Part shown: piece by piece, positions 1,799 through 32,943 of the stretch
Layout: each line of letters begins with the position of its first letter
Position numbering within the stretch: position 1 is the first letter of the stretch
Origin: a virus
Virus record (IMG/VR): IMGVR_UViG_3300022540_000418
Location: 1-32,943 of that record
DNA: 32,943 nt
Reading direction: 5' to 3' (one strand)
Made by a program: the position numbers and the translations under genes
Notes under the pieces: generated by a model
Seen by the model: the letters and a program-made list of their open reading frames with translations, nothing else
The model's database searches: none
Told to the model about the DNA's origin: nothing

Positions 1799-2193
1799 TA
1801 CTCGAACCTCACTTTGATACCGCGAGCCAGTTCGCCCAGGAATTGACCCATCTTATTCTGTAGCTGCTCTAAGGCGTAAGTGAAAGGCCCTTTCCCCAGT
1901 ATTCTAGCAGACGAGCCCCTTTCGACGTGCCGGGCTTCCATCTTGGAGGTGCCATATTCGACAAAAGGCGCATACTTCACATTGGTAAATACCTCTCCGC
2001 TCTGCGGCTCTACCTTCGCAGAAATACTAGAGCGCAACCGCGTTTTATCAACTGGCGTGGCAGCCATTACAGTTGCCTGAAACCACATCGTAATCTTGCG
2101 TATCGAGGTAGATACGGGTTTTTTGAAATTGCCCTTATCAAGTTTACCCAATAGCGCCGCCTTACCCAATAATTGGAAGCTGAATCCTGTCAT
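1798..2193 (-). CDS. HK97 gp10-like head-closure / tail-completion protein
   Basis: 131 aa. The motif ATPVDKTRLRSSI, followed by YAPFVEYGTSKMEARH, is characteristic of the HK97-gp10 family, found between the head-tail connector and tail terminator in siphoviruses. The C-terminal helix (LEQLQNKMGQFLGELARG) is also usual. Length is normal. The start overlaps the connector stop as ATGA, and the stop overlaps the next start as TAATG, so translation of the connector genes is coupled. Confidence 0.87.
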   Translation of the reverse strand: MTGFSFQLLGKAALLGKLDKGNFKKPVSTSIRKITMWFQATVMAATPVDKTRLRSSISAKVEPQSGEVFTNVKYAPFVEYGTSKMEARHVERGSSARILGKGPFTYALEQLQNKMGQFLGELARGIKVRFE

Positions 2194-3005
2194 ACGTATT
2201 GCTGCCTTCTATAAGGGGCGACCAATTCCTTTACGTCTGGATCGATACCCTTACTCGTTATCACCTGGCCCGTTTCGGGCGAGCCGACGACATCCTGGTA
2301 AGCCGAATCCTTACGCTTCCAAGCCCGCATGGCCATAATCAAGACGGCCTGGGTGATATCTGCGGGGTAATCATAAACCGATACGGCGTCGTCCTCGGAA
2401 TGGGTTGCCGCCGTGGTCCCATTGACGGGCCTTTTGACGTATAGCTTGTTCTGAACCACGTCCTCGACGAACATCTGTTCACTGCCGACCCGCACGGTTT
2501 GCCCGACCTTGACAAGCGCCCCTGAATCAACCTCAAATTCCGTTTCAGAGGCCCCCAGGGAGCCCGCCAGGGCCGTTTTCTCGGTGAAGGGTGTGGCACA
2601 GTCCGCGAAACCAAAAATCCCCACGATTTCGACGCCTTGGGGCTGTCCTGGGGCAAAACTAGCGTAATTTCCGTTGGAATTCGCCATGAGAAGGATTTTT
2701 GGGTAACTGTTCAGCGGGTAAAGGTGATAGTCCGTAGCGTCCATTGTAACCTCGTAAGTGCCGTCCCCGTCGAAGTCACATTTGAGCGTCGTTATGGACA
2801 AGATATCGTCGGGTAACCACAACTGCCTGTGGCCCCCCGCGAAATACCTGGTTCCCTCATAGCAATAGAAGTAGCGACCTGTCAGCTTTATCTGCTCGAC
2901 TTGGCGGCTGGCCGCCGTGAGAAGGCGCAGCAATTGAGTATTCTCCTGGGCCGTCGTAACGTCCAATAAAGCTTTCAGGTCATCTAATGTCGCATATACA
3001 TTCAT
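2190..3005 (-). CDS. Head-tail connector (gp6-like adaptor), enlarged
   Basis: 271 aa. The N-terminus (YATLDDLKALLDVTTAQENTQL, shortened here; then LLTAASRQVEQI) is the helical start of gp6-like connectors. The end (AVLIMAMRAWKRKDSAYQDV) is the usual C-terminal helix, followed by IDPDVKELVAPYRR. Between them are about 150 residues of beta-rich sequence with a strand pattern around LGASETEFEVDSGALVKVGQ and VRVGSEQMFVEDV. That makes the protein more than twice the length of a minimal connector (about 100 aa). It would sit below the portal and link the head to the tail. Start ATG 3005 overlaps the upstream stop. Confidence 0.8.
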   Translation of the reverse strand: MNVYATLDDLKALLDVTTAQENTQLLRLLTAASRQVEQIKLTGRYFYCYEGTRYFAGGHRQLWLPDDILSITTLKCDFDGDGTYEVTMDATDYHLYPLNSYPKILLMANSNGNYASFAPGQPQGVEIVGIFGFADCATPFTEKTALAGSLGASETEFEVDSGALVKVGQTVRVGSEQMFVEDVVQNKLYVKRPVNGTTAATHSEDDAVSVYDYPADITQAVLIMAMRAWKRKDSAYQDVVGSPETGQVITSKGIDPDVKELVAPYRRQQYV

Positions 3006-3316
3006 GGCGCCTCTTTGACCTCCACGCTATAGTTTTCTGTGGTTTCCCTCGCGCCTGACTTGGTAGCGCGCACACTGACGAGGTATTCGCCCGCGTTTAT
3101 GAAGTCATTCTCCACGACGAGATATTTCCAGGTGCCTTCGGTAGCAATCACAACGTCAGCACTAGCAGACACTAGCGGGTGGCCCCAATTGCCCATTTCC
3201 CAGGCGTTGAAGGTTAGCGTATAGCCTGTCAGGTTGAATACGCTACCGTCGGCGTTGGTTATTACACCTTGCAGATAGAAGCCATAGTCGCTTCTCTGAA
3301 TAGTCAAATCAGCCAT
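3002..3316 (-). CDS. Ig-like baseplate/fibre-associated protein (BppU-N-like)
   Basis: 104 aa, all beta. The sequence DYGFYLQGVITNADGSVFNL, TGYTLTFNAWEMG, then GTWKYLVVENDFINAGEYLV and SVEVKEAP fits the immunoglobulin-like domain known from N-termini of lactococcal baseplate proteins and common as a stand-alone phage protein. The likely role is to attach or cap a fibre, since it directly follows a repeat-fibre gene (8-bp overlap) and precedes the connector. The family resemblance is from memory, not a search. Confidence 0.65.
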   Translation of the reverse strand: MADLTIQRSDYGFYLQGVITNADGSVFNLTGYTLTFNAWEMGNWGHPLVSASADVVIATEGTWKYLVVENDFINAGEYLVSVRATKSGARETTENYSVEVKEAP

Positions 3317-4199
3317 TTTGCTTCACCTTCATATTCAAAGTTCGGTCCGCTATCGCGGCCGTCAATTCCCGGTCGGGCAAGCTCAGATTGAGGGTGTAGT
3401 AAGTCATTTTCGTTATACCGATGGTTACGCACAATGCCGCCCTGGTTGTCGTCTGACTGGCAAGGACTAGGGCAATGAGGGTATTGAGGGTAAGCGCGGC
3501 CCTCGTGGCCGTTAGCGACCTTAAGACAAGCTCGATCGGCGCCGCAATCGTTAGCTCTAATGCCGCGCGGCTTTCCGTCAGGGACCTTAACTGTAACGCG
3601 GTAATGACAGCGAGGGCCAGAGCTGCCCGGGTATCGCTTAACGACCTACCTGCCAGGGTTATTTGACTGACCAGCGCTAACGCGGCCCTTGTATCGGTGA
3701 CCGCCCTCAGCGCCAGGCCGATCATCGTTTCCAGGACGACGCTGGCCCGCGTGTCGGTGACGGACCGGCACGCCAGCAGCGGCACAACTGCTATAACTAA
3801 GCCGGCTCGTGTATCGGTGAAGGTCCGCAAAACGACGGCGATTCCAGTAGCAAGACCGACCGCGGTCCTGGTATCGGTTAGGGATTTCAGTTGTAATTCG
3901 GTTGCCGCTGTAACTGAAATCGTTATGGTTACTCTTGTGTCAGTAAAGGATCGCAGCGCAACCGCAACTTCCGCCGTAAGAGCCAATGCAGCCCTTGTAT
4001 CTGTTGAAGACCTGAGAGTTAATCCTACGCTCGAATCAAGCGTTATATCTGCGCGGCTATCACTACTACTGCGTAAATCTAATGTTACTAAGACAAGCTG
4101 GCTGCCTCTTCCGAATTCTGTAAGATAGATAACACAAGCCCGCCCGAATTCAGTTATGGCTTCGGTCGCTATTCTGCCATGCTCAGTGATTTGCACCAT
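3309..4199 (-). CDS. Repeat-built fibre/adhesin protein 2 (RSxTDTRAAL repeats)
   Basis: 296 aa. Residues 1-42 carry three TE(H/F)GR motifs. Residues 43 to about 264 are ten complete repeats plus a shortened one; eight are 20 residues and two are 22. The consensus is RSxTDTRAALxLxxxIxLxL, a polar turn followed by alternating hydrophobics, as expected for beta-solenoid or beta-prism fibres. Residues 265-296 are a tail (TLNLSLPDRELTAAIADRTL) shared with the protein at 5652..7355, so the two are paralogs. No enzymatic motif. It is likely a virion-surface fibre or adhesin. The ATG at 4199 starts next to a weak AGGTGATTT site. I know no named family for this repeat. Confidence 0.75.
   Translation of the reverse strand: MVQITEHGRIATEAITEFGRACVIYLTEFGRGSQLVLVTLDLRSSSDSRADITLDSSVGLTLRSSTDTRAALALTAEVAVALRSFTDTRVTITISVTAATELQLKSLTDTRTAVGLATGIAVVLRTFTDTRAGLVIAVVPLLACRSVTDTRASVVLETMIGLALRAVTDTRAALALVSQITLAGRSLSDTRAALALAVITALQLRSLTESRAALELTIAAPIELVLRSLTATRAALTLNTLIALVLASQTTTRAALCVTIGITKMTYYTLNLSLPDRELTAAIADRTLNMKVKQNG
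3408..4073 (-). repeat. Coding tandem repeats, 60/66-bp units (protein 2)
   Basis: About eleven diverged in-frame repeats encode the RSxTDTRAAL units. In the plus-strand text they show as recurring words such as gtatcggt and gcggcccttgt every 60 or 66 bases. The DNA copies differ a lot while the protein pattern is kept, so the array is old and under selection, not a recent slippage product. Confidence 0.85.
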
Positions 4200-4229
4200 A
4201 AATCACCTATTCATCTAATTTGTGATTGT

Positions 4230-4553
4230 TTAGGGCTTTTCTGCTTCAGCCTGTCTCTCCGCAGCAGATTGAATAACTGCTCTCTTAACAATCTCCTTCT
4301 TGATGTTTTCGGGTAACTCTTTGACCGAGGTTAAGACTATCCCTTGGTTACTGAGATAATCACGGAGCAGTTGCTTGTCCGCTAGTGACAAGATTGTATG
4401 AGTCTTGTCCTCCAAGGCTCGTTTGCATATCTCATCACCACACTGCCTTCCCTTATTGAAGATGGCATTGTTAGCCCAGATGTCAAGGTCAACTATATCC
4501 CACTCCATTGCCTTCTCGACTTCATCATCTATTTCTATATTAAAGGTTTTCAT
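4230..4553 (-). CDS. Small acidic helical protein, unknown function
   Basis: 107 aa. It begins MKTFNIEIDDEVEKAMEWDI, continues with FNKGRQCGDEICKRALEDKT and LSLADKQLLRDYLSNQGI, and ends in a Lys/Glu helix. It is soluble and mostly helical with no catalytic motif I recognise. It lies between the C1q-like spike and the second repeat protein, so it may be a chaperone or assembly factor for those fibres; that is inference from position only. The start follows AGGAGGAGACATG. Confidence 0.65.
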   Translation of the reverse strand: MKTFNIEIDDEVEKAMEWDIVDLDIWANNAIFNKGRQCGDEICKRALEDKTHTILSLADKQLLRDYLSNQGIVLTSVKELPENIKKEIVKRAVIQSAAERQAEAEKP

Positions 4554-4561
4554 GTCTCCTC

Positions 4562-5344
4562 CTATGCTATCTTTACGACTGTTAAATTAGCTTGTAACTG
4601 CCCAGCATCAAGGTCGGCATCAGCCCCAAAGTTGTGGTAGATTTTTGCCTCGATATAATCTGAGGCTGACATCGATACAAGGGCTATTGGGAAGGATGTT
4701 ATACCACTAGCTATAGAAGTATGCCGTTCATCCTTCGCAATAGTAGACCCATTTAGGGCGATATAAATAACAACTTTCTTGTCTGCAACAACCGTGGCAT
4801 CAGTTATCCTGCCACACGCAAAGATATAATATTTACCAGCTTCAGTAGCAGTAAACCTAGAATGAAATAGGTCATAAGTTTCCGTATCCACCATAATATC
4901 GGCATCGAGAGTCAACTCCCCACTATCAACGAAAGCAGTTACGGTAGCGTATGTGTTATCAGTTTTATTCCAGATTTCTGCCCCCACATCAGAGGCAGCA
5001 AATCCGCCATTAGCATCGTGTAGTTTAGCAAATTCAGTAGCATCGGCTGTCCCCGACTTAACGGTAGTATTAAACTCATTCTGTATATCAAAGGCTTCTG
5101 CATCGTATTTTAGCTTTGTTACTGTACCAGTTTTTACAACTTGGTCTACTGTGTTAAGATATGCCCTTGCACCTGATTGTTTCGCTAGTGTAAGAACTCC
5201 AATAGCACTGAGCTTGAAAGCCTCAACTCCTGCCGCATCCATCCTGACTATATCTTCGTCAGCCGATTCCTCAACCTGAATCTTAGTATCCCCGTCGGCA
5301 TCCTGAATGAGCGTATCCTTGTCCTTATATGGTGTCCTAATCAT
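4562..5344 (-). CDS. Tail spike / receptor-binding protein with C1q-like domain
   Basis: 260 aa. Residues 1 to about 90 are a short-strand beta-structured stalk (DADGDTKIQVEESADEDIVR, MDAAGVEAFKLSAIGVLTLA) seen at the base of many viral spikes. The C-terminal 130 residues (FTATEAGKYYIFACGRITDA, VVIYIALNGSTIAKDERHTS, SASDYIEAKIYHNF) match the jelly-roll pattern of C1q/TNF-like phage receptor-binding domains. The probable role is trimeric binding to the host surface. It is followed by the acidic helical gene and preceded by a small beta-protein gene with a 1-bp gap. Confidence 0.78.
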   Translation of the reverse strand: MIRTPYKDKDTLIQDADGDTKIQVEESADEDIVRMDAAGVEAFKLSAIGVLTLAKQSGARAYLNTVDQVVKTGTVTKLKYDAEAFDIQNEFNTTVKSGTADATEFAKLHDANGGFAASDVGAEIWNKTDNTYATVTAFVDSGELTLDADIMVDTETYDLFHSRFTATEAGKYYIFACGRITDATVVADKKVVIYIALNGSTIAKDERHTSIASGITSFPIALVSMSASDYIEAKIYHNFGADADLDAGQLQANLTVVKIA

Positions 5345-5345
5345 G

Positions 5346-5642
5346 TCATGTCACCTTCGTATAGACGCCATCATAGGCTATCAGCTTTGTTGCTCCTGCT
5401 ACATTCTTGACGCGAATCCTGTCTGTGTTCGTTACATGGAAGGCATACATAGCCAAACAGCCTGCGCCAATTTCAGAATGAAAGAGTAGGTTATTAGTGC
5501 CATCATAACGATAAACTTCTATATCGTCTTCGTGATAGATATTATGAATAACCGCCTCATGTCCTGCGGCTGGCTGAATATCGCAGAAAGCATCATCAGC
5601 CACACTTTCAATGTCCGTGAATTTATCTAATACATCTGCCAT
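5346..5642 (-). CDS. Small beta-rich structural protein, probably fibre-associated
   Basis: 98 aa. It starts MADVLDKFTDIESVADDAFC and continues with beta strands around AVIHNIYHEDDIEVYRYDG and a C-terminal NTDRIRVKNVAGATKLIAYD block. Small proteins of this shape are common next to phage spikes, where they act as connectors or decorations. No enzymatic residues stand out. The strong CAATAGGAGGATAACATG start region supports expression. The function is inferred from context. Confidence 0.68.
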   Translation of the reverse strand: MADVLDKFTDIESVADDAFCDIQPAAGHEAVIHNIYHEDDIEVYRYDGTNNLLFHSEIGAGCLAMYAFHVTNTDRIRVKNVAGATKLIAYDGVYTKVT

Positions 5643-5651
5643 GTTATCCTC

Positions 5652-7355
5652 CTATTGCTGACTGCCCCGCATAGCCATAGTTAATTGCCTGTCATGCAGC
5701 TCCATATTGAGCGTTTGCTGCCTCATGGCTGTTGTTAAGGCTAATGCTGCTCTAGTGCTTGTCTGACAGAGCAGAGCGAGAGTGATCAAGGTATTCAACT
5801 GGATTGCTGCTCTCGTTGTCGAGGCGCTGCGACATTGTATCTCTGTAATTAGAGATATTGTCAGAATAATTGCAGCGCGTGTCGAAGTGCTAGAGCGCAT
5901 TTCCAGCGAAATAGCTGCCAGCAGAGCTAAACTTGCCCTTGTATCTGTTGAAGACCTACATTCCAAGTAGGTGATTTCAGTAACTTGTATCTCTAACGCG
6001 GCTCGCGTATCGGTTTGGCTTCTCAGAGCCAAGCTGACTAATGTATCGAGAATCAAGGCGGCTCGCGTATCAGTTGAAGACCGACACGCGATTTCTGTTA
6101 TTGCTGTTACTGTTATTGTCAGTCGTGCGGCGGTATCGGTAGAAGAACGCAGATGTAATCCAATTCCTGTCGCTAGAGTTAAATCGGCTCGCGTATCGGT
6201 TGCGGAACGTAGCTCTAATTCGGTTACTTCGGCTACCGTCAGCGTGATTGCCGCCCGGGTATCGGAAGACGAGCGAAGCTCAATAGACACACCCACGCCA
6301 AGGCTTATATCGGCTCTGGTATTAGAAACAGCCCTGCCAGCTATGGCGATTGCGACACTTATCGTTAAGCGCGCGTCAGTATCACTAGAAGAACGAAGAC
6401 GCAGAGTAATGCCAGTGTCTAGTGCCAGTCTTGCGTCAGTGTCGGTGCTAGAGCGCAGTTCAAGCTCGGTAGGTGCAGCACCGTCTCCTGTGCCATAGAG
6501 GGAGAGCCCCCAACCTGCGGCAAGAGTAAAATCTCCCGTATCTTCAGGGTCGCAGTAATCGCCGACGATGGAATAACTTCCACTGTAGCCGCTGTTATCA
6601 GCGTCTACGTTAAGGATTTTATTATTGGATTCGTCAAGCCCAATGAATTCCCCAGCGGTGATGCTAAGAGTTAACCCTGTAAATTGTTGTAATATGTCAT
6701 CATCTACTTCCCCAACTGATTCGGCGTCATGGCAAGTAAAGTTACCAGAACCATTATCCGTGAAAGTGCCTATTCGGCAATTATTTCCGTTTTGTGCGGT
6801 GTCGAACCAGGCTTCGACGGTATCAATAGTTCCCGTATCGTTAGCGGCATTGTTATAGTTAATGTGTGTGTCATATCTTAAAGCAGCATTTGCCGCTCTA
6901 TCCTCCGCCGCCAACCCAACGTCAATCGTGCCACCCTTGCCTATGTGAAGGTCAATGCCGTCGGCAACGTGAGTTATACCAATATCAAACTCTGAAAGCC
7001 TACCGAGTAGGTCTTGCAGCCTGTTCGTATTCTTGTTTTTGTCTCTAGTGTCGCCAGCTACAAAGCGGTGCCTGACCTGTCCCTCTTGGAATGGCACTTT
7101 CTTCCATTCGCCTATGAAGGGAAGGTCGTTATCCCAGCAATGCTGATGAAAGGCGTAGAAATAGCGGAGACAACGTGTAATGTCTGCTAGGATTTCAGCG
7201 TCGGAAGCACTATGTAAGGGGTGTATGAAATGAACATGGAAAGGCTTATGTCCTTGATAATGCGGCTCACGAGGCGACAGAAAGAGGTCGAGGCGTAGCT
7301 TTATTCTATCCTTGCGTATTTCGCAGCCTGACGCGTTCAGCTTGGCATAGGGCAT
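5652..7355 (-). CDS. Repeat-built fibre/adhesin protein 1 (RSxTDTRAAL repeats)
   Basis: 567 aa in three parts. Residues 1 to about 130 are a His/Arg-rich head (KPFHVHFIHPLHSASDAEIL). Residues 130-300 are a beta-rich domain, with VEAWFDTAQNGNNC and DFTLAAGWGLSLYG, resembling lectin or carbohydrate-binding folds. Residues 301 to about 544 are eleven repeats plus a short one, RSSTDTRAALxLxxxIxLxL. The last eight complete repeats strictly alternate 22 and 20 residues. The C-terminal tail (TLNMELHDRQLTMAMRGS) matches the shorter protein at 3309..4199. Ser/Thr-rich turns at each repeat could be sites for glycosylation. It is probably a host-binding fibre. Start ATG 7355. Confidence 0.75.
   Translation of the reverse strand: MPYAKLNASGCEIRKDRIKLRLDLFLSPREPHYQGHKPFHVHFIHPLHSASDAEILADITRCLRYFYAFHQHCWDNDLPFIGEWKKVPFQEGQVRHRFVAGDTRDKNKNTNRLQDLLGRLSEFDIGITHVADGIDLHIGKGGTIDVGLAAEDRAANAALRYDTHINYNNAANDTGTIDTVEAWFDTAQNGNNCRIGTFTDNGSGNFTCHDAESVGEVDDDILQQFTGLTLSITAGEFIGLDESNNKILNVDADNSGYSGSYSIVGDYCDPEDTGDFTLAAGWGLSLYGTGDGAAPTELELRSSTDTDARLALDTGITLRLRSSSDTDARLTISVAIAIAGRAVSNTRADISLGVGVSIELRSSSDTRAAITLTVAEVTELELRSATDTRADLTLATGIGLHLRSSTDTAARLTITVTAITEIACRSSTDTRAALILDTLVSLALRSQTDTRAALEIQVTEITYLECRSSTDTRASLALLAAISLEMRSSTSTRAAIILTISLITEIQCRSASTTRAAIQLNTLITLALLCQTSTRAALALTTAMRQQTLNMELHDRQLTMAMRGSQQ
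5724..6455 (-). repeat. Coding tandem repeats, 60/66-bp units (protein 1)
   Basis: Twelve units in frame. Spacing between successive RSxTDT motifs is 20, 20, 20, 22, 20, 22, 20, 22, 20, 22, 20 residues. The alternation gives a 42-residue (126-bp) super-unit, which points to growth by doubling of a two-repeat block. The same repeat type occurs 1.6 kb downstream in protein 2. Confidence 0.87.
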
Positions 7356-7390: not shown

Positions 7391-7795
7391 TTAGCCGGTG
7401 GCAAAGACAGCTATTGCAACTTCGAGGTCGCTTATTGCGACCGTTACACCGTCTGACCCTGTGGTTTTTGAAGTCTCAATGGTCGCGATATATAGCTCAT
7501 TGCCCGCAGTTGTCGCATCCCAGACTGTGAAATGCGTTATCTCCTGCGCCGAATCAATCTCTGTTCCCGCCCACTCTACCGCAGCAGTATTCTTAGAGAT
7601 TTGCTCCGTCGCAGTAGTCGAGGCAACCGCAGTTCCCATCGTAGCGGGCTTTCGGGCAATATCGGCTGTGCCGACCAGTGCTTCGTTTGCTGTGCCAGCG
7701 TTACCCGGGTCGCCCGTGTGCAGCATTAGATGTGGAGTTCCACCTTGCAGGTCCGCATCTAGCTTCGCATTAGCGTTCACATATCCCATTGCCAT
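7391..7795 (-). CDS. Putative tail-fibre / virion structural protein (HTGDPG type)
   Basis: 134 aa, low in charge and rich in Ala/Thr. The signature LHTGDPGNAGTANE, followed by IARKPATMG and THFTVWDATTAGNELYIATI, belongs to a common phage structural protein type found next to fibre genes. It is probably exposed on the virion. It starts at ATG 7795 behind AACAGGAGGTAACAA; the zinc-ribbon gene stops four bases before this start. The exact virion position is not known. Confidence 0.68.
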   Translation of the reverse strand: MAMGYVNANAKLDADLQGGTPHLMLHTGDPGNAGTANEALVGTADIARKPATMGTAVASTTATEQISKNTAAVEWAGTEIDSAQEITHFTVWDATTAGNELYIATIETSKTTGSDGVTVAISDLEVAIAVFATG

Positions 7796-7990: not shown

Positions 7991-8779
7991 TTAACTCTCG
8001 GTGCACGCGTCGCACTTTGGTAGTTCGTGTCCGCGGCCTTCTTTGTGCCTTTGCTGATATTCCTGGTGCTCGCTCGTCGTCCATATTTCCTCGATTGTCT
8101 GTGTATTCAGGTCCCCGAACTTTATATCACCAAACGGGTCAAAACAGCAAAGGCATACCACGCCGGTATAGAGAACTGTCATTTGGTTGATGGCCCGCGG
8201 GCATTGGGTCCACCGCCGCCGTTCGTAAGGATATTGAAGGCCCGCCCAGGATTGATACCGAATAGCCGACCCGCCCGATTCTATGAACGCGGTTATTTCA
8301 TCCTGGCTGATTTCGGGGTAGGCGACCATTGTGGCCCGATACTTTAGCCCGAGCCTGTCCATCAATTTGAAAGCCTGGACCACAGTCCAATAGTCCTTCA
8401 GCCCCATAACCTTTTCCCGCGTTTCGGGGCTCATCCCATTCAAAGAGACACTGAGCCGCAATTTGGGAATAGCCGCCAATTGGTGCACCAGGTCCGAAGT
8501 CAAGAAGCTGCCATTGGTATAGACCTCAATTTCCACACCGGGCAATCTAGCCCGCGCCAATTTCAGCCTGTCCATGAAGTCCTTATCCATGAACGGCTCT
8601 CCGGTCAACATGGGGTGAAACTGGCCCAAATTCGGCAAGCGGCTCGCTTCGTCGATTATCTTTTCGTATAAACCCTGAGCCATGAAGCCCTTCTCTGTGA
8701 ATTGGTGCTGGGGGCAAAAGACACACTTCCCGTTACAATGATTCGTCGTTTCGACCTGTAAATATAGCAGGTCCTTCAC
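7991..8779 (-). CDS. Radical SAM / SPASM domain enzyme
   Basis: 262 aa. The radical SAM cluster motif is C15-x3-C19-x2-C22 in NHCNGKCVFCPQH, with the usual GEP motif (MLTGEPFMDKDF). The C-terminus is a SPASM-type region: VVCLCCFDPFGDIKFGDLN, then the classic TIEEIW helix and C256/C259 near the end. Known family members cleave SAM at an Fe-S cluster to modify peptides or sugars. The GTG start overlaps the stop of the methyltransferase-glycosyltransferase gene (GTGA), so the two are co-translated. Finding it among virion genes is unusual; its substrate is unknown and may be a virion protein or a host glycan. Confidence 0.87.
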   Translation of the reverse strand: MKDLLYLQVETTNHCNGKCVFCPQHQFTEKGFMAQGLYEKIIDEASRLPNLGQFHPMLTGEPFMDKDFMDRLKLARARLPGVEIEVYTNGSFLTSDLVHQLAAIPKLRLSVSLNGMSPETREKVMGLKDYWTVVQAFKLMDRLGLKYRATMVAYPEISQDEITAFIESGGSAIRYQSWAGLQYPYERRRWTQCPRAINQMTVLYTGVVCLCCFDPFGDIKFGDLNTQTIEEIWTTSEHQEYQQRHKEGRGHELPKCDACTES

Positions 8780-10176
8780 CCCGGCTCACCATACGGATAG
8801 GGGTGGATTTTATCGTTGTTCTGCTGTTTAACGGTTATGAAGTGTAGGAAATGCTCAGGCCCGACCAGGCCCTTCGCTTTGTGCCCCGAAATGACGCCGG
8901 GGTCCACGAATATTTTAAAGCCCGCCGCCTGGACCTTGCGGCAAAAGTAGAAATCTTCGCCGACAAAAGTTCCAGGATTGTATTCGAACCACGGGGGCTC
9001 GATAGCGTCTAATACTCTGCGATGGACCAAAAGGCACCCCGCGCCAACGCCGTCGCACTCTATCAAGTCTTCCTTGGTCGAGGGGAGTATAACGGCTTCG
9101 CCGCCGCGCAGGTGGTCCTTATTTTTGCGGAGGAATTGCGCCAGCGGATTGACCACGGGTGAGTAGTAATGCGCATCCTTTTCCTCTTTGGCATTCCCCT
9201 GGTAGGCATACACGTAGCAATGCGGGTATGGCACGCCAGGGCTTTTGAAATAGAGGCCCGATATCACCGGTAAGTCCCAGCTTAGTAATTTCGTCAAGGT
9301 TTGCGGGGCGAAAGTCTGATCCGCGTCCATGAAGAATAGCCAGTCCTTTTCTAGCTCTCTGATGATCTGATTCCGTGCCACGTCGGCGGGCCGATTGCTG
9401 ATCTTTGTCAGCTTGAGCCCGCTAGGCTTTTCCAGGCCGATGAACGAATAGAACCATTCGTCAGGGATTTGCCCCAGGCAGGGAACGCCCACATGAACCC
9501 CGTGGCTGTCCCCACCTTTGACCAGGTCCCCGTTCGGCCTTTCTATGAGGTTCACGTCCAGCGCCATCTTCGTGAAATACTCGGAATGGTCGAAGTGCAT
9601 CGGGAATATCTCTTGCTGCCCGAAATTCGACCGATGATAGACGAACCCCTTATCCCTCAGACACCGGGCGAGCTCTTTGAGAAGCCCCGGTAGGGCGTCT
9701 TTGTGGACGTGCTCGAAGAAGTCATTGGCCACGACGATATCGATGTCCCTGACGCCTTTTAACATCGAAATGGTGTCAATTCCCAGACCGCGGTCGGCAA
9801 ACCGCATTTCCGCGAAAGCTCTCAGGCGCGGGTTTATGTCGTAATAGATAACGTGGTTGCCCGCGTAGGCCAGTTGAATACATAGCGTTCCCAGGCCCGC
9901 GCCGATCTCCAATACCCTTCGGTTTCGATAGGATAGTAGGGGTGCATTCCAAGACTGATAGAGGGGACTTTCGCAGTTCCAGGGTATCAATTCATACAGG
10001 TAGAAATCCCCCTGGTCGCGGTAGAAGCGGGCTACTTCCGTTGCCGTCTTCGGGGCCGCCTTTTCCCAGCGCTCAGCGGCTTGTGTTACGTTATACGCCC
10101 GCACGTCCTTTAGAACCTCATTGTAAGTCTGGTTCAGGAATCGCGCTAATTCCCTGACAGTATGTTCGAAGCTCAC
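8776..10176 (-). CDS. Methyltransferase-glycosyltransferase fusion
   Basis: 466 aa. Residues about 100-200 are a class I SAM methyltransferase: motif I EIGAGLGTLCIQLAYAG, the acidic end of strand 2 (YYDINPR) and motif IV VVANDFFEHV. Residues about 225-466 are a GT-A-like glycosyltransferase: NRPADVARNQII, the metal-binding DADQTF, DGVGAGCLLVHRRVLDAI and VGEDFYFCRKVQAAGFKIFV. Both sugar transfer and methylation are likely; methyl-capped glycans are a plausible product. The GTG start follows AAGGAGGGTAAAG just downstream of a large stem-loop. The stop overlaps the radical SAM start. Confidence 0.87.
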   Translation of the reverse strand: MSFEHTVRELARFLNQTYNEVLKDVRAYNVTQAAERWEKAAPKTATEVARFYRDQGDFYLYELIPWNCESPLYQSWNAPLLSYRNRRVLEIGAGLGTLCIQLAYAGNHVIYYDINPRLRAFAEMRFADRGLGIDTISMLKGVRDIDIVVANDFFEHVHKDALPGLLKELARCLRDKGFVYHRSNFGQQEIFPMHFDHSEYFTKMALDVNLIERPNGDLVKGGDSHGVHVGVPCLGQIPDEWFYSFIGLEKPSGLKLTKISNRPADVARNQIIRELEKDWLFFMDADQTFAPQTLTKLLSWDLPVISGLYFKSPGVPYPHCYVYAYQGNAKEEKDAHYYSPVVNPLAQFLRKNKDHLRGGEAVILPSTKEDLIECDGVGAGCLLVHRRVLDAIEPPWFEYNPGTFVGEDFYFCRKVQAAGFKIFVDPGVISGHKAKGLVGPEHFLHFITVKQQNNDKIHPYPYGEPG

Positions 10177-10862: not shown

Positions 10863-11978
10863 TTATGACGTGGTGGACGCCAGACACACGTAAGGCGACT
10901 GCGTAGAACCACGCTTGGGCGTGAACGCCGTGTCCTGCAACGGCTGCCCGTCCACGCGCTTAACGAACCGCCAGGTTGTCTCGTCGGTGTTGAAGCGGTA
11001 TTCCACGCTGCGGTCGATCTTCAGGCCCTTGCGGTCCCCGATAACGTATTTATCGAGGTCATAGAGCCCGATATCGCCGACGCTGCCAAGGGCGGCCTGG
11101 TGCTCGGTGAAGTATAGCGGAATGCCGAATAGGCCCGTCGGGACCCGCTGCCCCGCGATCATTGCCCACGTTAGGACCGTGCTCCCCAAGTTCATCAGGT
11201 AAGGCAGAATGCCCTTATTCCCGACCCAGACCGTCGAGCGCCCATAGAGGTCGCCCTGGAACCGAGCCATGACATCCCCCAGGTCGGTCAACGCTACCTG
11301 GCTCACGGTGGCACGGAAGGGCGTTATCAGGGCCCCGCTGTTCATAATGCCTAGCGGCTGCCCTACCCCATTGCCCTGCCAGAAGGCTTCTTCCTCAAAC
11401 CAAGTGATCGAATCACCGAATAGCTTGATTAGGAGCGCTTCCAGCGCGATCGCGGCGTCCTCTAGCAACTCGTCGGACGCGAAGGTGAAGCCGATTAGCT
11501 TTTTGGCTATCAGCTTGATATTGCCGAACGTCGGCTGGCTGAGCGTCTTGGTCCCAGCTTGCTCCGTCCAGTAAGCGATGACGCCCCCGTGAACACTAGA
11601 GCTATGGGAAGTGTCCTTTACGGTCGGGTAGTTCAGCGTATCGCTGGTCATGGGCATTTTACGGGCCAGGGGCCGCACAATAGCCGTCTCCAGGGCCACT
11701 TGCTCGATACCCGCCGCCCATTGTTCGGGCACGAGGAAGCCGCCTTCCGAATCCACGTTTGAACTCAGCGCCTTCAGGCGGCCGTCGTCGGGGGCCATTC
11801 GGTTTTTGTGATGGTCATTGACAGCCCTGAGCCATTCGCCGAAACTCTTGAACTGGTTCACATCTTCGGCTGGGGGATTATCGCCCCCAGGGGGAAAGTG
11901 CCTATCCGTGAGCTTCAGCGCCTCTACGGCTTTTTCGGCGGCTTGCCTTGCTAATTCCTTGATTTCTTCTTCGCTCAT
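10863..11978 (-). CDS. Major capsid protein, HK97 fold
   Basis: 371 aa. Residues 1 to about 75 are a helical, charged scaffold-like segment (EEEIKELARQAAEKAVEAL), which the protease usually removes. The capsid body starts near GGFLVPEQWAAGIEQVALET and continues with MTSDTLNYPTVKD, a typical HK97 strand order, and AFWQGNGVGQPLGIMNSGAL. The C-terminal P-domain strand is around KYVIGDRKGLKIDRSVEYRF. It builds the icosahedral shell. It lies directly downstream of the protease, as in HK97, with a 6-base gap and an ACGGAGGTAAATCAAT ribosome site. Confidence 0.93.
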   Translation of the reverse strand: MSEEEIKELARQAAEKAVEALKLTDRHFPPGGDNPPAEDVNQFKSFGEWLRAVNDHHKNRMAPDDGRLKALSSNVDSEGGFLVPEQWAAGIEQVALETAIVRPLARKMPMTSDTLNYPTVKDTSHSSSVHGGVIAYWTEQAGTKTLSQPTFGNIKLIAKKLIGFTFASDELLEDAAIALEALLIKLFGDSITWFEEEAFWQGNGVGQPLGIMNSGALITPFRATVSQVALTDLGDVMARFQGDLYGRSTVWVGNKGILPYLMNLGSTVLTWAMIAGQRVPTGLFGIPLYFTEHQAALGSVGDIGLYDLDKYVIGDRKGLKIDRSVEYRFNTDETTWRFVKRVDGQPLQDTAFTPKRGSTQSPYVCLASTTS

Positions 11979-20468: not shown

Positions 20469-21206
20469 CTATCTTCGGACACTCTTGCCGTACTTGCCGT
20501 GGATAAACTTGTCCGGGTCCGCCCGGGCCTTCGTCCCACTCCTCCCGTATCGCTTCCAGTTCTTCAATATGCCCGCGATGTAGGACCATGACGGTTTATC
20601 TTGCTTGACCGCTTCCTTGATGGCATCGACGACCCAGGGGGCAGAGAACATCTTGACGGCTAGATCGATCTCGGTCTCCATAGCCTCAGTAGGTTCTCCG
20701 ATGTTGTTGCGGTAGACCTCTGAGGGGTCTAAATCGGTACTTTTATTGACCTCATTTGATAAACAACTACTACCTTCTTCTTCTACTTCTTCTTCTACTT
20801 CTTCTTTAACTTGTTCTTTATCTTCTGAGGGACATGATCCAGAGTTAGTCCTGATTAGATCCTGCGGAACAGGGGGGATTTGCGATGCAGATTCCCTAGA
20901 TTTATGCAAACCTATTTGATGTTTCTCGAAACTTTGCATCGCCAAAAACTCATTTCCATCAACAAAGTAGCGCAGAATTAAGTTATAATGTTCCAACTCT
21001 TTCAGATATTTCTCGATTTTCCGCGCCGGCATGGAGCGCCGGGGAAAGACTATCGACTTGACTGTTAGCGCATCGCCATACATTCTGCCCTCGCAGTCTA
21101 GGTGAGGGATCAGCCAGGTGAACAGAAGGCGCGCCGTATCATCCGAGAGCGCGTTCACCTTCTCGTCCAGGCTTATGACCTTGCTTAGCATCCGTCCTCT
21201 AGCCAT
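20469..21206 (-). CDS. DnaD-like replication protein
   Basis: 245 aa from ATG 21206. The N-terminal ~100 residues are a winged-helix initiator-type domain (RMLSKVISLDEKVNALSDDT, FTWLIPHLDCEGRM, FPRRSMPARKIEKYLKELEH). A Glu-rich linker (EEVEEEVEEEG) follows. The C-terminal domain, with WVVDAIKEAVKQDKPSWSYI then AGILKNWKRYG, has the DnaD/DnaB-2 signature. It probably loads the host helicase at the phage origin. I prefer the start at 21206: AAGGGGG is upstream, and a small membrane-protein gene ends at 21220. Confidence 0.8.
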   Translation of the reverse strand: MARGRMLSKVISLDEKVNALSDDTARLLFTWLIPHLDCEGRMYGDALTVKSIVFPRRSMPARKIEKYLKELEHYNLILRYFVDGNEFLAMQSFEKHQIGLHKSRESASQIPPVPQDLIRTNSGSCPSEDKEQVKEEVEEEVEEEGSSCLSNEVNKSTDLDPSEVYRNNIGEPTEAMETEIDLAVKMFSAPWVVDAIKEAVKQDKPSWSYIAGILKNWKRYGRSGTKARADPDKFIHGKYGKSVRR

Positions 21207-21219
21207 TTTACGAACCCCC

Positions 21220-21387
21220 TTAGCCCATGCTACTACTTCCAGAATTAGGGTCAAAGTGCATAGCCAGTAGCAAACACCCTATGCCCCCAAACAGACAGAG
21301 AAGTATTGCCCACGCTCGACAACTAAACGCAGCCGGTAGCAATCCGCTAAAGAATACAACTGACACGAAGTAGAGAAAACTAGCCAT
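21220..21387 (-). CDS. Small two-helix membrane protein (55 aa)
   Basis: A short frame between the radical SAM and DnaD-like genes: MASFLYFVSVVFFSGLLPAA forms one transmembrane helix, and WAILLCLFGGIGCLLLAM a second. The end is polar (HFDPNSGSSSMG). Start ATG 21387 follows AGAGGTGAGA and overlaps the radical SAM stop by 8 bases (ATGGCTAG). Function unknown; possibly a membrane anchor. Confidence 0.68.
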   Translation of the reverse strand: MASFLYFVSVVFFSGLLPAAFSCRAWAILLCLFGGIGCLLLAMHFDPNSGSSSMG

Positions 21388-31336: not shown

Positions 31337-32943
31337 TATAACTCCAATACGGCATTATAGCGTTTCCTAGTCAGCAATTGCTCGTAGATGATATCGGCAA
31401 GCTCGCGCTCAGTTTTGACGCTACCATAGACGGTAACGTTGACCGTATCGCCGCCCAGGCCCGCCTGGCTCAGCGGGATAACCGCTTCGGGTCCCCGTTC
31501 GCCGATGATGGCCGCCGTCGGGCCCGTGACGACGCCGCCATGCTGCAGCTTGGTAGAAAACTCAGGAAATTTCCAGCCAATCTCACCGATGTTCACGCCA
31601 GGCAGTTTATTGATAAGCCGAATGACCCAATTCAGGCCCTCTATGACGCCATTCACGACAATCCGAATAGGCGTAAGAACAGCGTCAATCACCTGCCAGA
31701 ATACCGATTTTATCCCGTCAACAAGCCTTCCGAAGAAGTTCGCTATGCCCCTGAATACGCCCATAATGAAATTGCCGACCGCCTGAAATGCGGCCTTGAC
31801 CTTATCGAAGTTTTTTATGAGCGCAATTATGCCAATAACGAGCCCGGCTATGGCTAGAATGATGAGGCCGATAGGATTCGCTGACATCGCCACATTATGC
31901 GCCCATTGCGCGACTGTCGCCGCTATAGTTATGCCCTTTAGTATGCCAATCAATGCGACTATCTTGGGCAGCACAATCAGCATAACGCCCAGCACGGCCG
32001 CCCCCGCCAAAAGCGCAACAGTGAGCTTTGGGTGTTTTTCAATCCAGGCACCAACCTTTTCTATAATAGGTGTTAGCGATTCCATCAGTTTTGACAGTAT
32101 GGGCAGAAGGGCGGTCCCGATCGTGATAGCAATATCCTGGAATTGTGCCTTTATCTTAGCGAATTTGCGGGCGGTCGTTTCCTCCATCTGGTCGAAGGCA
32201 TCCGTGGCCGCACCGGCGGCGCCAGCCATAGCGTCCAGATCGTCCTGGAAAGTCCGAGCATTATCGCCAGTGAGAGCCAATACAGCCTGTAAACCCTCGA
32301 CAGACCCGAACATCTTGCCTAGCATTTCATTGGAGCCACCCGATGCTTCAGTCAGGGCATCCAGTGCTCCCGCTAGCCCCCTTTCGGCAATAAGGGCATC
32401 ACCAGAGGCATAGCCTAGATCTTCGATTGCTGCCTTCATTTGGTCGGTTGGCTTAATCATGGCCTGAATTGCCTGTCTTAACTGTGTCGTCGCCACTCTA
32501 GTAGGCACACCCTGCTTTGTCATTGTAGCTAGAGCGGCCGAGACTTCTTCGAATTTGACTCCTACCGCAGCCGCCATTGGAGCCACTTGAAATAGTGATG
32601 CCGACAATTCCTCGAAAGTTGTCTTGCCGCCCTTGACCGTAGTGAACATTATATCGGCTACCTTTTGAGCCGAGCTCACCGGTATCTTGAACGCATTAAG
32701 AACTGTGGTAAGTCCGTCCACAGCGGTTATCGTGTCTGTAACGCCGCCAATAGCGGCCTTAGTTGCTATCTTCAGAAAGTCCACGACATTCTCTTTGGGA
32801 ATACCAGCAGAAATTGCCTGATAGAGTGCCTTGGCCGAATCGGTCGCGCTGACCCCTAATTCCCGGGCTACAGTCTGAATCTCTTTTGAAAAAGACTTGA
32901 ACTGGTCCTGGCTCAGCAGCATCATGGTATTGACTTCGCGCAT
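31336..32943 (-). CDS. Tape measure protein, main part (continues from 256..1)
   Basis: 535 aa here, 602 aa with the 67 residues encoded at 256..56. The front has the TP901-type core (GVSATDSAKALYQAISAGIP, KFEEVSAALATMTKQGVPTR). Two hydrophobic segments (LTVALLAGAAVLGVMLIVLP and NPIGLIILAIAGLVIGIIAL) may form the membrane-pore part used in DNA entry. The end is the usual TP-AAIIGERGPEAVIPLSQA motif. At about 1.5 angstrom per residue the tail would be near 90 nm. The M at 32943 is internal, not the start. Confidence 0.93.
   Translation of the reverse strand: MREVNTMMLLSQDQFKSFSKEIQTVARELGVSATDSAKALYQAISAGIPKENVVDFLKIATKAAIGGVTDTITAVDGLTTVLNAFKIPVSSAQKVADIMFTTVKGGKTTFEELSASLFQVAPMAAAVGVKFEEVSAALATMTKQGVPTRVATTQLRQAIQAMIKPTDQMKAAIEDLGYASGDALIAERGLAGALDALTEASGGSNEMLGKMFGSVEGLQAVLALTGDNARTFQDDLDAMAGAAGAATDAFDQMEETTARKFAKIKAQFQDIAITIGTALLPILSKLMESLTPIIEKVGAWIEKHPKLTVALLAGAAVLGVMLIVLPKIVALIGILKGITIAATVAQWAHNVAMSANPIGLIILAIAGLVIGIIALIKNFDKVKAAFQAVGNFIMGVFRGIANFFGRLVDGIKSVFWQVIDAVLTPIRIVVNGVIEGLNWVIRLINKLPGVNIGEIGWKFPEFSTKLQHGGVVTGPTAAIIGERGPEAVIPLSQAGLGGDTVNVTVYGSVKTERELADIIYEQLLTRKRYNAVLEL
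32889..32943. repeat. Terminal direct repeat, right copy (contig circularity)
   Basis: Identical to bases 1-55; see the left copy. The identity is exact over all 55 bases, and the reading frame of the tape measure continues across it. Confidence 0.95.

Follow-up and report, generated by a model that had tools for sequence, protein, structure and literature searches.

What are the two tandem-repeat proteins, A and B, whose genes follow the capsid gene and precede the head-tail adaptor gene of this virus, and what might they do in the virion? The window, i.e. the whole stretch of DNA analysed here, is a 32,943-base record of siphophage type from an uncultured bacterial virus. Its two ends (1–55 and 32889–32943) carry the same 55 bases as a direct repeat, and the reading frame of the tape measure appears to run on across the end junction; the record is thus probably a complete genome, circular or terminally redundant. 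On the minus strand, the genes follow the order terminase, portal, protease, major head protein, methyltransferase/glycosyltransferase-like protein, radical-SAM/SPASM protein, gp80-like protein, A, three small genes, B, BppU_N-like protein, head-tail adaptor, HK97-gp10-like protein, tail assembly protein and tape measure, which places A and B in a neighbourhood of structural genes. Elsewhere in the record, a CTT triplet/12-base tandem repeat lies at 20774–20826 within an open reading frame (20469–21254, minus strand). The features of the locus are as follows.

10863–11978, minus strand: major head protein (phrog_10, E=7.4e-47)
7391–7795, minus strand: gp80-like head/fibre protein, directly before A (Pfam and PHROGs)
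5652–7355, minus strand: A, repeat protein of 567 aa (ORF call and repeat analysis)
6483–6938, minus strand: N-terminal domain of A, residues 140–291 (phmmer E=1.7e-34 to contig L020)
5721–6464, minus strand: repeat array of A, residues 298–545, 12 units of 20/22 residues
5655–5714, minus strand: C-terminal tail of A, residues 548–567 (E=3e-4 against a profile of other tails)
4562–5344, minus strand: 260 aa protein between A and B (weak BclA C-terminal-like Pfam match, E=0.0021, below cut-off)
3309–4199, minus strand: B, repeat protein of 296 aa (ORF call and repeat analysis)
3411–4082, minus strand: repeat array of B, residues 40–263, 11 units
3312–3410, minus strand: C-terminal tail of B, residues 264–296, common to RS-type and GxGTL-type relatives
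3002–3316, minus strand: BppU_N-like small protein of 104 aa (E=0.037 for the member in the window, below cut-off)
2190–3005, minus strand: head-tail adaptor, 271 aa (phrog_442, E=2.8e-15)

The positions, strand and sizes of the two repeat proteins are as the first-pass annotation had them, and their proposed likeness is confirmed by 47% identity across 282 aligned columns. About 11 repeats had been expected in each protein, which is correct for B but one short for A. Successive units are spaced by 20, 20, 20, 22, 20, 22, 20, 22, 20, 22 and 20 residues in A, and by 20, 20, 22, 20, 20, 20, 20, 20, 22 and 20 residues in B. Strict alternation of 22 and 20 residues, noted earlier, therefore holds for the last eight spacings (nine units) of A but not for B. 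Compared with 500 shuffles, self-similarity is far above chance in both proteins (A, lag 42, z=16.8; B, lag 20, z=12.7).

Consistent with the earlier remark that no named repeat family with this pattern is known, Pfam yielded no family at its cut-off for A, B or the related proteins of contigs L003, L008 and L017, only weak unrelated matches. NCBIfam gave nothing for A and B (E≤0.1) or for L008, and PDB sequences gave nothing at E≤1 for A alone or for a profile of the arrays. In PHROGs, which has no curated cut-offs, nothing was found at E≤0.1 for A, L003, L008 and L017, and the best match of B (0.33) was unrelated. No match was obtained with A against isolate phages and plasmids, or in protein searches with L008 and with the head-tail adaptor. 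Using tblastn in isolate phages, we found one weak match for L020, two for L022, both outside its array, and none for L026. Among the papers listed by searches of the PMC library, no title or abstract opening describes the RS-type repeat. A first scan for relatives with patterns of A was empty because these came from stretches present only in A. By contrast, a DNA pattern of two adjacent units detected 14 stretches, including L003 and L008; the other 12 were rejected by eye as unrelated, most of them being simple repeats or frames of very short length. Looser and 22-spaced patterns added no relatives and found none in genome contigs, where the adaptor search was likewise negative, and L008 as a query recovered only itself. 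The relatives considered below are IMG/VR contigs retrieved by DNA patterns that span two units and by the protein sequence of the adaptor.

At the adaptor locus of these relatives, arrays of several wordings are found. RS-type arrays are present in L003 (9 units), L008 (22) and L017 (8). L018, L019 and L020 have a GxGTL-type array that repeats every 20 residues, with sporadic steps of 22 (L018 and L020 together hold 61 units; L019 is left out of the count), L022 a VTASR-type array with a period of 20 (30 units), and L026 and L032 a VGxGAV-type array with a period of 19, sometimes 21 (17 units). Steps of +2 occur in both GxGTL and VGxGAV arrays. Of the 23 contigs submitted to the lag test, two start inside the adaptor gene, leaving 21 with upstream sequence. 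A protein with tandem repeats of 17–23 residues is encoded one small gene before the adaptor, ending about 290–320 bases before it, in 11 of these; among 165 other plus-strand frames with at least 150 codons, one qualifies. The thresholds (lag score 0.6, z 6) were set after several arrays had already been seen. As L019/L020 and L026/L027/L029 are near-identical, only about 8 of the 11 positives are distinct; the other 10 contigs are negative in this test. The different wordings with near-equal unit length at the same locus suggest a common rod design, the wording of which is swapped between viruses. The genes for the methyltransferase/glycosyltransferase-like and radical-SAM/SPASM proteins, which come after the major head gene and before the fibre genes (7991–10176, minus strand), are both found in L017 in conserved order, and L018 retains the radical-SAM end; their products might modify the virion surface.

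The relatives also clarify the length of the unit. In a lag test of the individual proteins, the best lag is 42 in A; it is 20 in B, L003, L008, L018 and L020 and 19 in L026 and L032, and lag 60 is slightly above lag 20 in L017 and L022. Since lag 20 is best or nearly best in B and most relatives, each unit is a rung of roughly 20 residues, to which 2 may be added, and the 42-residue unit proposed earlier applies to A only, in which the strict 22/20 alternation is a local feature. The RS-type set comprises 62 units in five proteins, and 46 of its 57 spacings are 20, nine are 22, one is 21 and one 23. These units were found with motif-seeded profiles and lean towards those motifs; the lag test of the individual proteins is independent of the profiles. 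The last two repeats are position-specific in the five proteins (same-position identity of 0.51 for both, versus 0.40 and 0.42 to other positions) and thus look like a capping end.

A profile of four tails (B, L003, L008 and L017, with A excluded) searched against 4017 frames recovered L019 (1.4e-8), L020 (2e-8), L018 (4.3e-6) and A (3.2e-4), and nothing else beyond its own members below 0.9, confirming the common C-terminal tail noted at first pass. Moreover, homology links the N-terminal domain of A with the N-terminal part of L020, at 43% identity in 173 aligned columns, although the L020 array is of GxGTL type. Thus, in A and L020 the same end modules flank differently worded arrays. Domains of adhesion type occur in L022, which has a LamG-like domain (E=4.9e-17) and a BNR match below cut-off. 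Weak fn3 matches, also below cut-off, are present in L020 (3–2681) and L018 (847–4947); by eye, a fibronectin-III-like domain seems in both to carry the outer domain beside the array as an insert, and the inserts differ. The start of the BppU_N-like gene overlaps the end of B by 8 bases, so the last residues of the B tail may be partly held by DNA signals; the A tail is not placed at such an overlap.

Where, then, would these proteins act? BppU_N matches are found in five of the six members of the 104 aa protein group (best E=4e-5), while the small gene beside the VTASR and VGxGAV arrays (L022, L026 and L032) has no detectable homology to the BppU_N-like gene of the window. Since the tail and the genes that follow it (BppU_N-like in the closest relatives, and the adaptor) are constant, the C-terminus is most likely the anchor. 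With roughly even confidence, we propose that A and B are virion appendage proteins, each with a variable N-terminal part, a beta-solenoid stalk and a conserved short C-terminal tail; the tail would hold the fibre close to the head-tail junction, while the N-terminus would point outward, where it could serve in host binding. Different phages would retain the length of the rung and exchange its wording and the outer domains, such as the LamG-like domain of L022. A lesser but tangible possibility is that gene order is misleading and that A and B are located at the tail tip or baseplate, or on the capsid surface. Indeed, baseplates are known to contain BppU_N domains, as described in PMC6669499, and A follows a gp80-like head/fibre gene. 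However, these locations sit poorly with the position of the repeat gene, which in 11 contigs is separated from the adaptor by one small gene and lies well ahead of the tape-measure gene and the genes after it (e.g. in L003).

In the 62 RS-type units, odd positions (2.94 bits, mean hydropathy 1.86) differ from even ones (1.63 bits, −0.97), and permutation supports this alternation in both conservation (p=4.6e-4) and hydropathy (p=1.7e-3). GxGTL units alternate in conservation (p=0.004) and weakly in hydropathy (p=0.04), VTASR units display only a slight odd-position excess and VGxGAV units no in/out alternation. As 55 of the 57 RS-type spacings are 20 or 22, insertions nearly always preserve the in/out order. 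The AF2 model of A residues 296–567 from a shallow, six-row alignment has mostly two strands of 6–8 residues per unit; its pLDDT is 65 and its pTM 0.60, and the five models range from pLDDT 51.9 to 65.2. Foldseek gave no significant match to the PDB (best E 0.16 and 1.3) or to viral models, where several uncharacterised viral proteins had a probability of 0.97–0.99 with E above 0.01. In VIA-align comparisons with 65 Foldseek-ranked PDB chains, CsgA (8c50_A) ranked first (Z 21.6, rmsd 8.8 Å, 271/272 residues), followed from Z 13.7 downward mostly by beta-solenoids, with leucine-rich-repeat proteins at low Z. Collectively, the in/out alternation, the two modeled strands per unit and the mostly solenoid matches make a regular beta-solenoid the best-supported and a likely fold, with moderate confidence; the beta-solenoid, one of two folds suggested at first pass, is thus retained, but its 42-residue two-rung period is not general. 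Such a stalk would be a two-strand solenoid with one 20-residue rung per repeat, in which positions 19, 1, 3, 5 and 9, 11, 13, 15 would face inward, turns would lie near 6–7 and 16–17, and a +2 insertion would preserve the in/out order of the rung.

Phage fibres are commonly trimeric, and a homotrimer (beta-prism or triple beta-spiral) with sheets shared between chains would also be compatible with the in/out alternation, which suits any beta fibre, and with the only moderate confidence of the monomer AF2 model. Nevertheless, a single chain already suffices in the model for two strands per unit, and most matches of this model are solenoids of one chain, so that the trimer is the less likely alternative. 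Less plausible still are antiparallel up/down meanders of long strands, in which the 20/22 alternation would reflect two kinds of strand. They would account for the alternation in A, and the single-sequence AF2 model of the whole protein does differ from the alignment-based one in having longer strands, of ~17 and then 12+6 residues per 42, with block pLDDT up to 82; however, B and the relatives show no alternation, and the model was altered once an alignment was supplied.

The age of the repeats was estimated from codons. Between units of A, protein and DNA identity are both 0.46, and 44–46% protein identity is kept between repeat copies. Where residues are identical, the codon is identical in 159 of 581 cases among A units (0.27 versus 0.26 expected from codon usage), 120 of 464 among B units (0.26 versus 0.25) and 281 of 1132 between A and B (0.25 versus 0.25). 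With synonymous codons as different as chance and protein identity retained, the arrays are, judging by their coding sequence, old and kept by selection on the protein. Recent tandem duplication by replication slippage, without structural meaning, was rejected as highly improbable: the units do stand in tandem and A shows lag-42 similarity, but the copies share only 46% DNA identity, their same-residue codons are no closer than codon usage predicts and Tandem Repeats Finder reports no array at A or B.

A broader and more tentative proposal is that uncultured siphophages carry a neck-attached adhesive appendage built on a curli-like two-strand solenoid with a rung of 20, sometimes 22, residues, in which whole arrays are swapped between the same N- and C-terminal modules and rung length rather than sequence is conserved. 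If so, the stalk would follow a simple design rule of constant rung length, free wording and +2 bulges, the four wordings would provide a natural test set on possibly one scaffold, and phage appendages would be linked to the curli-type solenoid, with use in the design of rigid protein rods.

Among known systems, CsgA resembles the predicted model of A, in which each repeat likewise supplies two short beta strands to a stacked solenoid. Curlin repeats are 23 ± 5 residues long according to PMC10192328, a length similar to, though above, the 20 residues found here. The same paper gives the motif N-x-psi-x-psi-x-Q for each strand; it is absent from the RS-type unit profile, in which the inward residues are I, L, L, S and T, A, L, L, with no N or Q ladder. 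Furthermore, identity to CsgA is 7% at an rmsd of 8.8 Å, and A and B are surrounded by phage structural genes rather than a curli operon. Pfam scans of 20 proteins, ten from the surroundings of A and B and ten from elsewhere along the record, had no csg match (csgG, csgE, csgF), the confident matches in these 20 proteins being to phage structural, nuclease, methyltransferase and radical-SAM families. Phage tailspike beta-helices are represented among the VIA-align matches by the P22 tailspike (8u1o, Z 13.6), but there is no sequence match, and the rung of A and B is shorter and highly regular, with a repeated motif.

The third comparison is with the neck passage structure (NPS) of lactococcal siphophages, in which, as described in PMC6669499, fibres bearing carbohydrate-binding modules are mounted on a ring of BppU_N type. 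In that account, BppU_N is in the same chain as a predicted coiled-coil stalk, whereas A and B have no Pfam match to BppU_N within their chains and would combine a beta-repeat stalk with a separate BppU_N-like gene. Gene location differs as well, since the NPS of TP901-1 is ORF51, after BppL (PMC4493119). Like the NPS (PMC6669499), A and B would be modular fibres that can exchange their outer domains and are linked, at the collar between head and tail, to a beta-sandwich of BppU_N type.
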